Shown: positions 40,162 through 44,757, counted from the stretch's first letter. The stretch is 52,234 bases of DNA from Candidatus Saccharimonadota bacterium (GCA_030529385.1 JAUMWY010000005.1:1-52234), one strand, 5' to 3'. Translations and numbers: made by a program. Notes: generated by a model from the letters alone, not told the origin.

Positions 40162-40563
40162 ATGTCTATGCAAACTACAGACCCAATCGCTGACCTTCTG
40201 ACCCGCATTCGCAATGCGAAAATGGTTGGCAAAACGGAAATTCGTGTTCCGTCAAGCAAGATGAAAAAAGTGGTTGCTGAGCAGCTGGTAAAGAATGGCT
40301 ATCTGGCCGACGTCACCGTTGAGGCCGCTAAGCCACGCGATATGTTGGTCGTCACCATCAATCGCCCAGGCGAAAACAGCACCATCAATGAAATCACCCG
40401 CGTGTCAAAGCCAGGCCGTCGTGTCTACGTTGGCTCAGCTGAGATACCAAAGGTGAAAAGCGGCCGGGGCTTGGTGCTGATCTCTACCTCAAAAGGTGTG
40501 ATGACCGGCGCCGAGGCTGTGAAAGCTAAACTTGGTGGTGAATTGTTGCTGAAGGTGTACTAA
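40162..40563 (+). CDS. rpsH: 30S ribosomal protein S8
   Basis: Ribosomal protein uS8, a primary 16S rRNA binder and, in E. coli, repressor of the spc operon. The 133-residue protein has TDPIADLLTRIRNAKMVGK, VPSSKMKKVVAEQLVKNGY and the C-terminal ISTSKGVMTGAEAVKAKLGG. ATG 40162 is served by AAGGAG at 40148-40153; a TTG two codons earlier is less likely. The operon ends here with a terminator, although rplF normally follows. Confidence 0.95.
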   Translation: MSMQTTDPIADLLTRIRNAKMVGKTEIRVPSSKMKKVVAEQLVKNGYLADVTVEAAKPRDMLVVTINRPGENSTINEITRVSKPGRRVYVGSAEIPKVKSGRGLVLISTSKGVMTGAEAVKAKLGGELLLKVY

Positions 40564-40578
40564 TCCTTCGGTCCTTGA

Positions 40579-40612
40579 TAAAAACACCCAGGTTATGACC
40601 CGGGTGTTTTTG
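40579..40612. terminator. Terminator after rpsH
   Basis: Inverted arms AAAACACCC (with AGG) and (CC)GGGTGTTTT around a short loop, ending in TTTTT. The A-run on the left makes it usable for the convergent minus-strand genes as well. Confidence 0.85.
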
Positions 40613-40663
40613 ATTTATATATAAGATGTAGATAGGCTATCGTCTTTAGCGGAATACTTCCAT

Positions 40664-41329
40664 TTATCCGTTAGTTGGCGCTATTGTGATGAGGGGGGCT
40701 GACTGGCGCCCGATAAGATCGGCACACTCACTCACTGCAATCTCATGCCCAAGTTGGTATCCGTTCCGCTGCGACTCTGGCAGTTCACGCACCTCATGAA
40801 ACATCATATGAAGCTCCGGCACAAAAAATAATTCTCGAAATGGCATGCCTTTGAGCCGCGACTTCACATTCGGCTTAGTTAAGATAATACCATGATTTTT
40901 TCCGAAAATTATTCTCTCAGGACCACTGGGTAGAATGATTGCAAAACATGTCACATATATAGCCCCTCTATCCGTCTCATCTCTAAGCTTTTTTAAACAG
41001 TAATCGATGATCTCTTGATCGCTCATTTCATGGCCATTCCAGCGCCTCGTAAATACACCCGGTTCACCCCCTAATGCTTCGATTTCTATGCCCGAATCGT
41101 CGGCGACAACTATCAAGTTTTTGTCGTCTTCGTGCAAATGAAGTTTTGCGTGTTGCGCCTTCGATAAGGCATTTTGCGCAAATGTCGTACCAGTTTCTAT
41201 GTGCTCAGGGATTTGATACCCTAAGTCTGCGAGTGAGATAACCGACGCTTGCGGATAAAACTTGCGAAATGTAGTAGCAAACTCTACGTACTTGCCAGTG
41301 TTTTTGGTGGCGAATAGTACCTTCACCAT
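40664..41329 (-). CDS. Ham1/RdgB-family non-canonical purine NTP pyrophosphatase
   Basis: Hydrolyses (d)ITP and (d)XTP to monophosphates, removing deaminated purine nucleotides before they enter DNA or RNA. The 221-residue protein has the family motifs ATKNTGK (residues 7-13), ADDSGIEIEALGGEPGVFTRR (D77/D78 as metal ligands) and RLKGMPFRELFFVPE. In typical RdgB the last motif is GFGYDPxFxP, so the C-terminal specificity part is divergent. It is the last gene of a three-gene minus-strand operon, overlapping the glycosylase gene by seven bases. A relaxed or altered substrate range is possible. Confidence 0.85.
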   Translation of the reverse strand: MVKVLFATKNTGKYVEFATTFRKFYPQASVISLADLGYQIPEHIETGTTFAQNALSKAQHAKLHLHEDDKNLIVVADDSGIEIEALGGEPGVFTRRWNGHEMSDQEIIDYCLKKLRDETDRGAIYVTCFAIILPSGPERIIFGKNHGIILTKPNVKSRLKGMPFRELFFVPELHMMFHEVRELPESQRNGYQLGHEIAVSECADLIGRQSAPLITIAPTNG

Positions 41330-42108
41330 GCTGCCACCTTGTACTTTTCGGCGAGTAGTAGGAAGGTGTGCAGGACCTGGTATAATTTTACGTCTTGCGG
41401 GATGCCGTCTTGAATCAGTTTTTTTACAGAAGCCACGTGCTTCTGCGAAGAAAAACTAGGGATATCCGATGAGCTTCCTGTAATTTCTTCTGGATAGAGT
41501 CTCGCCATTAACTTAAACACATTCGTATCAACGGGAAAGGTGGGCATATCAAGCCCTAGTAACACAAAGCAATCTGCGGCCTTCGGTCCAAATCCTGCTA
41601 GTCTCATAATTTTTTCACGCACCGCAGTAGCGTCCTGGCTACGTAAGCCATCTATTTTATACTCATCATCGGTCTTTATTTTGTTCAGTGCATTACGTAT
41701 CCAGATGGATTTGTTTTTAGCTATCCCAGATGGCTTCAGTATGGCTTCAAGCTCTTCAATAGGCAAATCCTCTAAAGCTCTAACATCACCTTTGGTGATA
41801 TTTAGCAGATCCTCGGTGACTCTTTGCTCTACTTCTAATGTACATCTTAACGACGTTATGACACTAACGAGAGTAAACTCTGGCACAAGTCTCTTTGCGG
41901 CTATAGGGTGTGATGGGCGTGGATAGGTTTGATGGGCAATATAGGAATATTCCTCGGATGCTTTTCGCGCAATTTTAAATAGAGTTTTGCAAATGTCATT
42001 GTGATATTCTGTCCGAAGTAGAATATCCATAGCTTGATCGTCTGTCTCGATGAACATGCTGCTACGCTGAAGTTCTGGATACTGAAGCTTATTTCTCTCT
42101 GTATTCAT
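41323..42108 (-). CDS. HhH-GPD DNA glycosylase, endonuclease III-like
   Basis: Base-excision-repair glycosylase of the helix-hairpin-helix GPD superfamily (261 residues). Catalytic residues are visible: K176 in LAGFGPKAADC and D194 in FPVDTNVFKL, separated by 18 residues as in endonuclease III, so both glycosylase and lyase activity are possible. The C-terminal cysteine cluster that binds the 4Fe-4S centre in endonuclease III is absent, and the N-terminal 70 residues are not recognisable. ATG 42108 was chosen because the frame further upstream overlaps the neighbouring gene almost completely; here the overlap is 20 bases. Which base it removes is unknown. Confidence 0.8.
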   Translation of the reverse strand: MNTERNKLQYPELQRSSMFIETDDQAMDILLRTEYHNDICKTLFKIARKASEEYSYIAHQTYPRPSHPIAAKRLVPEFTLVSVITSLRCTLEVEQRVTEDLLNITKGDVRALEDLPIEELEAILKPSGIAKNKSIWIRNALNKIKTDDEYKIDGLRSQDATAVREKIMRLAGFGPKAADCFVLLGLDMPTFPVDTNVFKLMARLYPEEITGSSSDIPSFSSQKHVASVKKLIQDGIPQDVKLYQVLHTFLLLAEKYKVAAW

Positions 42109-43036
42109 CACGAGTAATGTGCTTAAGTTTATCAATGGGGATGCTCTCAATAAGGACTGCAGTGTCTCTATCGAGGCCATGCGCCAGCCACAATATAGGT
42201 GGGGTTTCTGTTTTCTGTGGATAGATCCCCTTACTCCTTGGGGCATAGAATTGATTCTCGTCATACCAATATTCCATTGGACTGAGTGCATAAGGAGTGT
42301 AACTTGCTCCTGTGAATACTCCACCATCAAATCCCATATACGGGTTAAGCGCCGTGATAATGGCCTTTATATGAGGGTAATCTCGTGAGATTTGTTTATG
42401 AGATTGATGAAAGAGCTTACTCATGCTATTGCGGGGTGCATTATTGAAGGTGAATGCTCTTGTCATTGATAAAATCTGGTCGGGTTGAAGGTCGGTTCCC
42501 GCAACCTCGTTGAGAGACCTTAGCTGATAGTCGCGACTACATCTACTAAAACTAACGCTCGCATATGGGGTTTCAGCCCCATCTATAAATAACCCATAGT
42601 TTGCTATACTGTCATCTCGAGCCGACCTGATATAGTGTAAATGATCATTTATTTCTTTTGCCAAAAAAATAGGCACAGAACCAAATCTTACAGGAATAAT
42701 GTCTGCTTCGTCGTGAATTGATAGGACATTCTTTCCTTTCAGTTTCGCATCGGCGCTCACCATTCCCATTAGGGCAGACTCATACAAGCGATCGTATGTG
42801 TCCTTATAATCTTTGCCTAAAGTTAGGACTTTCCTGTCAATACCAGACAGCACCCTAGGGTCGTCATGTATAATTTCCTCTTCATTATAGTATGGTAAGT
42901 GCAGCAGGGCTTGTATCGTTATATATTTTGCGACAATTCCGAGTTGGCGTGAGCTTTCATTTGACCATTCCGTATTCCTCTCCATAAAATCTTGAATTGA
43001 AGGACCTGGCCGTAATTGCCGTACAATTTCTCTCAT
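42089..43036 (-). CDS. GNAT/Mom-like protein of unknown substrate
   Basis: A 315-residue protein, first gene of the minus-strand operon. I see a possible GNAT-type acyltransferase core: YGLFIDGAETPYASVSFSR (about 147-165), MTRAFTFNNAPRNSMSKLFH (191-210) and ALNPYMGFDGGVFTGASYTPY (229-249). The order, with APRNSxSKL before a NPYxGFxGGVF loop, resembles the Mom-type GNAT proteins of phages, which modify adenine in DNA. The similarity is judged by eye and is weak. The N-terminal 140 residues (with HDDPRVLSGIDRKV) and C-terminal 60 residues match nothing I know. Operon partners act on nucleotides and DNA bases. Confidence 0.5.
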   Translation of the reverse strand: MREIVRQLRPGPSIQDFMERNTEWSNESSRQLGIVAKYITIQALLHLPYYNEEEIIHDDPRVLSGIDRKVLTLGKDYKDTYDRLYESALMGMVSADAKLKGKNVLSIHDEADIIPVRFGSVPIFLAKEINDHLHYIRSARDDSIANYGLFIDGAETPYASVSFSRCSRDYQLRSLNEVAGTDLQPDQILSMTRAFTFNNAPRNSMSKLFHQSHKQISRDYPHIKAIITALNPYMGFDGGVFTGASYTPYALSPMEYWYDENQFYAPRSKGIYPQKTETPPILWLAHGLDRDTAVLIESIPIDKLKHITRDEYREK

Positions 43037-43047
43037 GAACTTAGTCT

Positions 43048-43075
43048 TTGCCTAAAAATACTCCAGTAATATAAT
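43048..43075 (+). promoter_or_regulatory. Promoter of the P-loop kinase gene, leaderless start
   Basis: TTGCCT (43048-43053), 16-base spacer and TATAAT (43070-43075), seven bases before the ATG at 43083. It sits back to back with the start of the minus-strand operon; no strong minus-strand promoter could be singled out in the 46-base gap. Confidence 0.65.
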
Positions 43076-43082
43076 ATCATAC

Positions 43083-43628
43083 ATGAGCCAATACGATATA
43101 ATTGGGATCTCGGGCCTGCAGTGTAGCGGTAAGGATTTTGCCGCAGAATACATAGCACGTGAGTATGGCTATCTACATATTTCAACAGGAGACATCTTGC
43201 GAGCAAGAGCTAAGGAGCTGGGATTAGATATGAGTAGAAGATCACTACAAGCATTAGGCTATCAACTACGTAAAGAAAATGATGGTCGAGATCCACTTCT
43301 TCTTGAGGCGCTCAGCTCCCTAAGCGGCAATACAGTACTCACGGGAATCCGTACACTAGATGCTGCACGCAGCATAATAGACGCGCCCGGTAGGCTTCTA
43401 TATATTGAAGCTCCACTAGAAGTTAGGTTTGAACGCAGTGTATCAAGAGCTCGTGTTGACCATGTTTCGATGGATGAATTCATTATTAATGATCAAATCG
43501 AACATTACGGGGCAGAGGATACTGACATGTCGCTATTCGCCGTCAAGTCTATCGCGAGTAGAGTTATCTGCAACCATGCCAGTGAGGAATCTTATAGGCA
43601 GTTGTTGCGGGACTTCGTTGAGAGCTAG
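43083..43628 (+). CDS. P-loop nucleotide kinase (dNMP kinase or dephospho-CoA kinase-like)
   Basis: A 181-residue kinase with Walker A GLQCSGKD (G11 to D18), a second block HISTGDILRARAKELG typical of NMP-kinase folds, a Walker B-like RLLYIEAPLEVRFERSVSRAR region, where the arginines would form the lid, and a C-terminal helix. The sequence resembles both dephospho-CoA kinases and phage or archaeal deoxynucleoside monophosphate kinases. The STGDILR stretch after the P-loop favours a nucleotide substrate. It is divergent from, and shares a 46-base promoter region with, the Mom-like/glycosylase/Ham1 operon. Confidence 0.72.
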   Translation: MSQYDIIGISGLQCSGKDFAAEYIAREYGYLHISTGDILRARAKELGLDMSRRSLQALGYQLRKENDGRDPLLLEALSSLSGNTVLTGIRTLDAARSIIDAPGRLLYIEAPLEVRFERSVSRARVDHVSMDEFIINDQIEHYGAEDTDMSLFAVKSIASRVICNHASEESYRQLLRDFVES

Positions 43629-43743
43629 CTATACAACGGCATTCTAAAGAAGGTGCTAAAATACGGTTTGTTGATGTTCGGAGAAGGCTCGGGCGCTTCT
43701 ATGATGTAATAGCAAGGTTAGACGAAAGAAGTTATATTAGGTG

Positions 43744-44139
43744 ATGAACGCAGAAAATAGAGCAACAAATGAACTTAGGCGATACACGGCTATTGCCTCA
43801 CTAGCCTCTATTGCGATTGGGTTGAGCGGCTGTAGCGGTGATGTATACGCCAAAACGCCAGCTATCGGTTGTCGCGCAGAGGTTACCGATATCCATCGCA
43901 TACCGGGCGAGATTGAAATGGAGTATACAACAGTACTCGGTACTGATGGCACAGTAAAACCGCGACATACACCAATCCGGCAGCCTGACACTTATGAACT
44001 ATCCCTGAAAACGGTTGATTGTTTTTCTGGCGATGACCCGCAGCAGCTCACCGTAGAGACTGATGAAGCCACCGGCAGAAAGGCGCATACCGGTGTGCTC
44101 GTACAGTACTCGCTGCGAGGCTGGCAATTGGCGGAATAG
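43744..44139 (+). CDS. Predicted lipoprotein of unknown function
   Basis: A 131-residue protein with a signal peptide (RRYTAIASLASIAIG) ending in the lipobox LSGC, so the mature chain would be lipid-anchored at Cys. The remaining 100 residues are hydrophilic with three further cysteines (GCRAE, VDCFSG) and no family I know. ATG 43744 or GTG 43741 are both possible; TATATT (43733-43738) just upstream suggests another short-leader start. It ends 78 bases before rplF. The 112 bases before it contain a small hairpin (AGAAG/CTTCT) and no gene I can support. Confidence 0.65.
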   Translation: MNAENRATNELRRYTAIASLASIAIGLSGCSGDVYAKTPAIGCRAEVTDIHRIPGEIEMEYTTVLGTDGTVKPRHTPIRQPDTYELSLKTVDCFSGDDPQQLTVETDEATGRKAHTGVLVQYSLRGWQLAE

Positions 44140-44152
44140 ACAGTAACTCTAC

Positions 44153-44181
44153 TTGCAATTTTGTCTCATTTTTGCTATAAT
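44153..44181 (+). promoter_or_regulatory. Promoter of the rplF operon
   Basis: TTGCAA (44153-44158), 17-base spacer, TATAAT (44176-44181). The 30-base leader contains GAAAGGTGAGG before ATG 44218. It restarts transcription of the ribosomal genes after the accessory block. Confidence 0.82.
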
Positions 44182-44217
44182 CATCAGGTTATTACTAATT
44201 TTACCGAAAGGTGAGGT

Positions 44218-44757
44218 ATGAGTCTGAGTCGAATCGGAAAACTACCCGTCGCTATTCCGTCAGGTGTGACAATTACGGTTGACTCTGGTGATGTGACCGT
44301 CAAAGGTCCAAAGGGTGAACTCACACAGTTCATCACACCAGCTGTCGACGTAAAAGTCGAAGACGGACAAGTGACCGTTCATCCTAAGGATGAATCAAAA
44401 ACCGCTCGCGCCCAGCATGGTCTGATGCGCGCGCTTATCAACAATATGGTTATCGGCGTCACCCAGGGCTTTGAGAAGAAGCTCGAGGTCAACGGTGTCG
44501 GTTTCCGTGTGGCGTCAAGCAACAACGAGCTTGACATGATGCTGGGCTTTTCACACCCAGTCAAATACAAAGCCCCAGAGGGCGTCACGGTCACCAATGA
44601 CAAGATGACCATCATCGTCAGTGGCATTGACAAGCAAAAGGTTGGCCAGGTGGCTGCCGAAATTCGCGCCCTGAAGAAGCCTGAGCCATACAAGGGCAAG
44701 GGTATTAAATATGCCGACGAGCAGATTTTGCGCAAGGCAGGAAAGACAGGTAAGTAA
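44218..44757 (+). CDS. rplF: 50S ribosomal protein L6
   Basis: Ribosomal protein uL6, near the sarcin-ricin loop and factor-binding site. The 179-residue protein has SRIGKLPVAIPSGVT, TVKGPKGEL, QKVGQVAAEIRALKKPEPYK and the C-terminal KGIKYADEQILRKAGKTGK. Complete. It leads a four-gene unit (rplF-rplR-rpsE-rplO) with its own promoter. Confidence 0.97.
   Translation: MSLSRIGKLPVAIPSGVTITVDSGDVTVKGPKGELTQFITPAVDVKVEDGQVTVHPKDESKTARAQHGLMRALINNMVIGVTQGFEKKLEVNGVGFRVASSNNELDMMLGFSHPVKYKAPEGVTVTNDKMTIIVSGIDKQKVGQVAAEIRALKKPEPYKGKGIKYADEQILRKAGKTGK

Follow-up and report, generated by a model that had tools for sequence, protein, structure and literature searches.

A rare four-gene unit with a Mom-like protein, a DNA glycosylase and two nucleotide enzymes at the rpsH-rplF junction of a Saccharimonadota bacterium

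The gene cassette and its second copy

We analyzed a 52,234-nucleotide (nt) stretch of DNA from Candidatus Saccharimonadota bacterium (GCA_030529385.1 JAUMWY010000005.1:1-52234), referred to here as the window, in which the gap between the rpsH stop (position 40563) and the rplF start (position 44218) contains an unusual cassette of four genes. Three overlapping genes on the minus strand code, in this order, for a Mom-like protein, an HhH-GPD DNA glycosylase and a Ham1-type pyrophosphatase, and a P-loop kinase gene is divergent from them on the plus strand. Gene calls placed all four where an earlier reading of the window, made from the sequence alone (the sequence-only reading), had put them. 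The Mom-like and glycosylase genes overlap by 20 nt, and the glycosylase and Ham1 genes by 7 nt.

With the Mom-like protein as query against 84,980 species genomes, we identified a single close relative, in Candidatus Saccharibacteria HKST-UBA53 (locus L004). This locus matches genome G428, which belongs to a different family of the same order. All four genes were present there, and neither their order nor their orientation differed: the kinase gene is on one strand and, after 41 base pairs (bp), the Mom-like, glycosylase and Ham1 genes on the other. Protein identity between the two copies was 62% for the Mom-like protein, 53% for the kinase, 51% for Ham1 and 50% for the glycosylase. The overlap of 20 nt was conserved, and substitutions were concentrated at third codon positions. 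Recurrence in another family, together with this pattern of divergence, indicates that the association of the four genes is more than chance. Failure of the four genes to co-occur elsewhere had been set beforehand as a refuting outcome, and an intact unit was what the search returned. Genes flanking the second copy (D-Ala-D-Ala carboxypeptidase-like and others) were unrelated to ribosomal genes, and the unit has thus moved or been transferred as a block. Alignment with this copy also set the start of the glycosylase gene at 42108, and not at an upstream TTG, giving 262 codons including the stop.

Occurrence of the unit was very limited. Among 393 genomes of the class, the cassette was found in 2, and Mom-like proteins were found in at most 6 (the two cassettes, G004, G343, G415 and, weakly, G165). 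The cassette glycosylase subfamily was detected in 2 of the 393, in both cases beside a Mom-like gene; a third match (G250) had a C-terminal cysteine cluster and proved to be an ordinary protein of the EndoIII type. Across the phylum, no other of 380 genomes had this subfamily, except for one weak match. Scans of viral contigs with three Mom queries, a Mom alignment and a glycosylase alignment gave no relative. The phage collection yielded only six Mu-like Pseudomonas Moms and no match to the glycosylase or kinase, and the plasmid collection contained no Mom, the glycosylase query matching only EndoIII. We conclude with high confidence that the four genes form a real, rare and mobile unit. As far as we found, no known system has this four-gene combination.

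G+C content of the cassette genes was 0.42-0.46, compared to 0.50-0.57 in most flanking ribosomal genes, in agreement with the sequence-only reading that the block is richer in A/T. Its suggestion of acquired DNA is backed by this composition, by the rarity of the unit and by the variability of the insertion site. The kinase gene had also been described as leaderless: a promoter-like TTGCCT-16-TATAAT site ends 7 nt upstream of its ATG, which is consistent with this view, although the region does not contain more promoter-like sites overall than expected by chance. Coordinates are given in Table 1. An additional lipoprotein-like open reading frame (ORF) between the kinase gene and rplF had no family match in profile searches of Pfam, PHROGs, PADLOC and NCBIfam.

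Table 1. Features of the rpsH-rplF gap, in positions of the window.
Feature	Position	Strand	Evidence or remark
rpsH terminator hairpin, followed by a T run	40579..40612	+	-17.1 kcal/mol, z -4.2
Ham1/RdgB-like nucleoside-triphosphate pyrophosphatase, 221 amino acids (aa)	40664..41329	-	PF01725; PDB RdgB relatives
HhH-GPD DNA glycosylase, 261 aa	41323..42108	-	PF00730; PDB EndoIII/ROS1/OGG1 relatives; start from L004 alignment
Mom-like protein, putatively of the GNAT family, 315 aa, extra N-terminal region of ~110 aa	42089..43036	-	PF25680; PDB 8bv8; profile-profile match
Divergent intergenic region between Mom-like and kinase genes, 46 bp (L004: 41 bp)	43037..43082		
P-loop nucleoside-monophosphate-kinase-like protein, 181 aa, apparently leaderless	43083..43628	+	PF13207; phrog_139; promoter-like site 43048-43075
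Lipoprotein-like ORF, 132 aa, outside the cassette (absent from L004)	43741..44139	+	
Promoter-like site 5' of rplF, TTGCAA-17-TATAAT with TG	44153..44181	+	consensus match only

Sequence relationships of the four proteins

The Mom-like protein matched Pfam family PF25680 (E 1.4e-7, 31.8 bits against a cut-off of 27.1) and, in PHROGs, Mom (E 0.004). A three-sequence profile matched the structure of Mu Mom (PDB 8bv8, E 8.6e-4), and an hhalign comparison of four Saccharibacterial copies with nine phage Moms gave a probability of 97.9 (E 3.6e-13). Homology to Mom is solid at the level of sequence, and the GNAT-like gene, which the sequence-only reading had called Mom-like, is thus a Mom homolog by three independent tests (Pfam, 8bv8 profile match and profile-profile comparison). 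The second outcome set beforehand as refuting, a GNAT-like gene of unrelated fold, was therefore not borne out by these sequence comparisons. Compared to the nine phage Moms, the cassette protein keeps H134 and Y135 (an invariant HY pair), R193 of an ELxR motif, in which the preceding E is not kept, and S206 of a PxNxxS motif. The last residue is the second serine of PRNSxS, and it is this serine that is replaced by alanine in the protein crystallized as 8bv8. Models built by AlphaFold2 on alignments of two sequences had predicted local distance difference test scores of 32 (Mom-like protein) and 48, too poor for a fold search.

Mom-like genes were also observed in other settings within the class. 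In G343 (L026:7558-10746), a gene for a 405-aa Mom-like protein is divergent from that of a 476-aa protein whose C-terminal half is NDPK-like, and a NUDIX gene follows; this is a second arrangement of Mom with a nucleotide enzyme. In G415 (L027:1-12000), genes for a classic Mom of 197 aa, a DNA methylase and a protein resembling dATP/dGTP diphosphohydrolase are located with replication genes at the end of a phage-type contig. In G004, the Mom-like gene was rejected as a cassette, having no cassette neighbor; a Ham1 gene lies at a distance of ~5 kb, in a chromosomal context of its own.

The glycosylase matched PF00730 (E 1.5e-6, 28.9 bits against a cut-off of 26.2), and its closest solved relatives are EndoIII, plant ROS1 and OGG1. 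Catalytic-type Lys176 and Asp194 (GPK and PVD, aligned to EndoIII) surround the helix-hairpin-helix, and correspond to the Lys and Asp found in bifunctional HhH enzymes. Sequence alignment revealed no C-terminal Fe-S cysteine cluster, and the protein missed the NCBIfam equivalog cut-offs for nth (36 versus 211.7 bits) and ogg (41.2 versus 397.9 bits).

Ham1 matched PF01725 (E 2e-31, 109.7 bits against a cut-off of 22.5) and was below both RdgB equivalog cut-offs (74 versus 145 and 119 versus 234 bits). In its base-pocket segment, GMPFRELF stands opposite the canonical GFGYDPIF of RdgB. It is the third Ham1-family gene of this genome. The two others, on contig C16, lie side by side (G000:C16:34652-35678), and a similar tandem pair was observed in G038 and G081.

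The kinase matched AAA_17 (PF13207, E 7e-12, 46.2 bits against a cut-off of 27) and phrog_139, a deoxynucleoside monophosphate (dNMP) kinase (E 9e-8), and missed all NCBIfam equivalog cut-offs. A match to VakA of PADLOC (E 0.02) was dismissed as a generic P-loop match. Relatives of this kinase are common (92 of 325 genomes), and in the 15 neighborhoods that were read, many adjoin rpoD/dnaG and polA-like genes. For example, in L098, L099, L102, L104 and L109 they are flanked by an rpoD-like sigma gene on one side and a polA-like gene on the other, or adjoin one of the two. This suggests that the relatives are a core, replication-linked nucleoside monophosphate kinase, and the cassette kinase accordingly appears to be a divergent relative of such an enzyme.

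The insertion site

The sequence-only reading had placed the block inside the spc operon. It does sit between rpsH and rplF; in this lineage, however, the junction is a terminator-bounded and repeatedly occupied boundary. Because rpsH ends in a strong hairpin terminator, the block interrupts no transcript. The unoccupied junction of G102 also has a terminator after rpsH. Within the genus, five relatives have differing cargo of 2.3-5.9 kb at the junction, and two have ~0.2-0.5 kb there. Among 26 informative loci of the family, it measured 50 bp or less in 12 and 100-755 bp in 7. In the remaining 7, no rpsH was present within ~1.4 kb; in three of them it was confirmed at a distance of 2-4 kb, and the others reach contig ends.

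Accessory DNA thus recurs at the junction (window positions 40564-44217; L013-L019 and L056-L093), and the cargo differs in nearly every species. In G141, an IetS-type subtilase/protease gene (L016:4266-6506, minus strand; PADLOC E 1e-63) and a truncated IetA-like AAA gene (L016:6992-7537, minus strand) were detected; IetS/IetA is a known defense pair. A type II N6-adenine methyltransferase-like gene is located 5' of rplF in G063 (L090:1011-2453, plus strand; E 9e-140), and a gene for a small protein with a CdiA_C domain occupies this position in G021 (L091:525-902, minus strand; E 3e-13). Cargo in G045 consists of Ham1, a PRA-PH/MazG-like protein and NUDIX. In two sister species, a Ham1 gene whose product is 69% identical to the cassette copy is present at the junction (L015:3248-3895 and L016:3064-3726, both plus strand), with no Mom, glycosylase or kinase gene alongside. 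It may be a remnant of the cassette or an older resident.

Possible functions of the cassette

Our confidence regarding the function of the cassette is moderate, and a role in base hypermodification, proofreading or defense, as the sequence-only reading had proposed, is a reasonable conjecture. The reading that we tentatively favor is a small mobile module that would mark DNA bases and tell marked from unmarked DNA, assisted by pool-cleaning helpers. It is favored because writer-like and cutter-like genes are co-translated and accompanied by those of nucleotide enzymes, because the whole unit is mobile as well as rare, and because defense-type genes also enter the junction. Also in its favor are the HY pair, Arg and Ser kept in the Mom-like protein, the catalytic-type Lys and Asp of the glycosylase, and the confinement of this glycosylase subfamily, among the class genomes, to sites beside a Mom-like gene. 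Mu Mom introduces a carbamoylmethyl (acyl) modification at N6 of adenine. With this reaction as a model, the Mom-like enzyme would acylate a base in the cell's own DNA, probably at an exocyclic amino group, and the co-translated glycosylase/AP (apurinic/apyrimidinic) lyase would excise bases in the wrong mark state. Its most likely targets would be unmarked bases in incoming DNA, that is, base-excision restriction; cutting at marked bases would be the alternative polarity. Ham1 and the kinase would bar the modified nucleotide, arising from DNA turnover or scavenging, from re-entering DNA via the deoxynucleoside triphosphate (dNTP) pool. We infer DNA as the substrate of the Mom-like protein, and likewise the activity of each enzyme, the polarity of the glycosylase and the role in defense. 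The narrower proposal of a restriction-modification system of a new make, in which a Mom-family acyltransferase would mark self, an HhH-GPD glycosylase/AP lyase would restrict, and the pyrophosphatase and kinase would guard the pool, we regard as rather unlikely.

By analogy, precedents in the literature would cover each link of the proposed module. The cassette protein shares with phage Mu Mom (PF25680, 8bv8) a homologous core of ~150 aa with HY, R, PxNxxS and GxxG-type motifs. It differs in its greater length and extra N-terminal region, in having N for D, F for Y and S for N, and in being encoded on a chromosome with glycosylase, Ham1 and kinase partners and no Com-like gene. In jumbo phages, Mom domains occur as fusions with restriction-like nucleases, and these have been predicted to act as modification-restriction pairs (PMC7824862). 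Here, too, a Mom-family enzyme is coupled to a presumed DNA-attacking partner, although this partner is an HhH-GPD glycosylase made as a protein of its own, from an operon that also encodes nucleotide-pool enzymes. A glycosylase serves as restriction enzyme in the case of R.PabI, and base-excision restriction is also carried out by R.CcoLI (PMC4357717, PMC10273834). As in these systems, modifier and glycosylase are encoded together, with translational overlap in the two genomes, and the cassette glycosylase could likewise cut by base excision followed by AP lyase action. However, PabI has a HALFPIPE fold and a methyltransferase partner, whereas the cassette combines what is by sequence an HhH-GPD protein with a Mom-family acyltransferase. 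That glycosylases can act in phage defense is illustrated by Brig1 (PMC11078745). ITPA accepts the triphosphate of the N6-substituted purine HAP (PMC3288088). The cassette Ham1 resembles the RdgB/Ham1 house-cleaning pyrophosphatases in fold family and ADDSG-type catalytic motifs, and differs from them in lying well below the equivalog cut-offs and in having PFREL in place of the FGYDP-type base-pocket segment.

Several observations weigh against the base-marking module. HhH-GPD enzymes usually excise modified or damaged bases and not normal ones. Three phage-invariant residues of the motif SxADxxxGHxGxxYxAxN are replaced in the Mom-like proteins of both cassettes (D149>N231, Y159>F241 and N163>S245; Mu residues are numbered by the 241-aa record, and invariance refers to the alignment of nine phage Moms). 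The G004 copy keeps all three. D and Y are among the proposed active-site residues of Mu Mom. With their loss, the cassette enzyme may have altered chemistry, another substrate or no activity. The base-pocket change of Ham1 is common to Ham1 genes that have no Mom neighbor (G125, G141 and partly G004). It was therefore ruled out as a cassette-specific adaptation and marks a Saccharibacterial clade. Given the residue losses in Mom and the loss of the base-pocket motif in Ham1, neither ordinary momylation nor cleansing of dITP should be assumed. In addition, the kinase group has widespread core-type relatives, no PADLOC-DB 2.0 family convincingly matched the cassette proteins, and only two copies of the cassette are known in the genome, phage, plasmid and viral collections searched.

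A related possibility is that the Mom-like protein marks DNA for regulation or protection, the glycosylase removes misplaced marks and Ham1 removes the modified dNTP, with no restriction of foreign DNA, that is, the logic of the GO system (MutT and MutM) applied to an enzymatic mark. We consider this doubtful. The HhH-GPD family includes erasers of enzymatic marks as well as of damage, with ROS1 and OGG1 among the closest solved relatives of the cassette glycosylase, and Ham1 plus a glycosylase would fit a two-tier pattern of pool and DNA cleansing. However, a co-translated writer and eraser of one mark would need tight control, and the neighborhood at other copies of the site is defense-like.

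The cassette could instead serve salvage sanitation, in which the kinase phosphorylates dNMPs obtained by scavenging, Ham1 breaks down aberrant dNTPs, the glycosylase removes those that are incorporated into DNA nonetheless, and the Mom-like protein acylates a nucleoside or analog and not DNA. The host, a tiny episymbiont-type bacterium, would then live on scavenged nucleotides, and scavenging is generally known of these bacteria. Nucleotide metabolism or repair is the plain role of three of the four proteins, the closest kinase relatives adjoin replication genes in many genomes, and in G343 the Mom-like gene forms a divergent pair with one for an NDPK-like protein, next to a NUDIX gene. On the other hand, the Mom family is known from DNA modification, and a housekeeping function predicts wide presence, at odds with the rarity of the cassette within the class. 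This explanation, too, appears improbable.

Brig1 and Brig3 are anti-phage, uracil-DNA-glycosylase-like enzymes that excise phage-modified cytosines (PMC11078745, PMC13160076). With Brig1 as precedent (PMC11078745), the cassette glycosylase could excise phage-hypermodified bases, such as momylated adenine, and the Mom-like protein could be a degenerate sensor or decoy. The glycosylase would then, as in Brig1/Brig3, act in a possible defense setting, and both the loss of the invariant D and Y and the presence of a phage-type Mom gene in G415, from the same order, are in line with this. We nevertheless consider such a role quite improbable: Ham1 and the kinase are left unexplained, and Brig enzymes belong to the uracil-glycosylase superfamily, whereas the cassette has an HhH-GPD protein with its writer in the same operon. 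Least probable of all is that four functionally unlinked accessory genes co-travel by chance in a permissive gap; although the gap gathers unrelated cargo in relatives and two sister species have a solitary Ham1 gene in it, the copy from another family, at another site, has the same gene order, orientation and overlaps at a protein identity of 50-62%.

Mom is known chiefly as a phage shield. If the base-marking module is correct, it would tie a chromosomal Mom-family enzyme to base excision and pool gatekeepers, joining modification, excision and sanitation in one transferable unit, and four small genes would suffice to test directly the role of bacterial Mom relatives. In Saccharibacteria, the variable junction between rpsH and rplF is a place to seek undescribed conflict genes.

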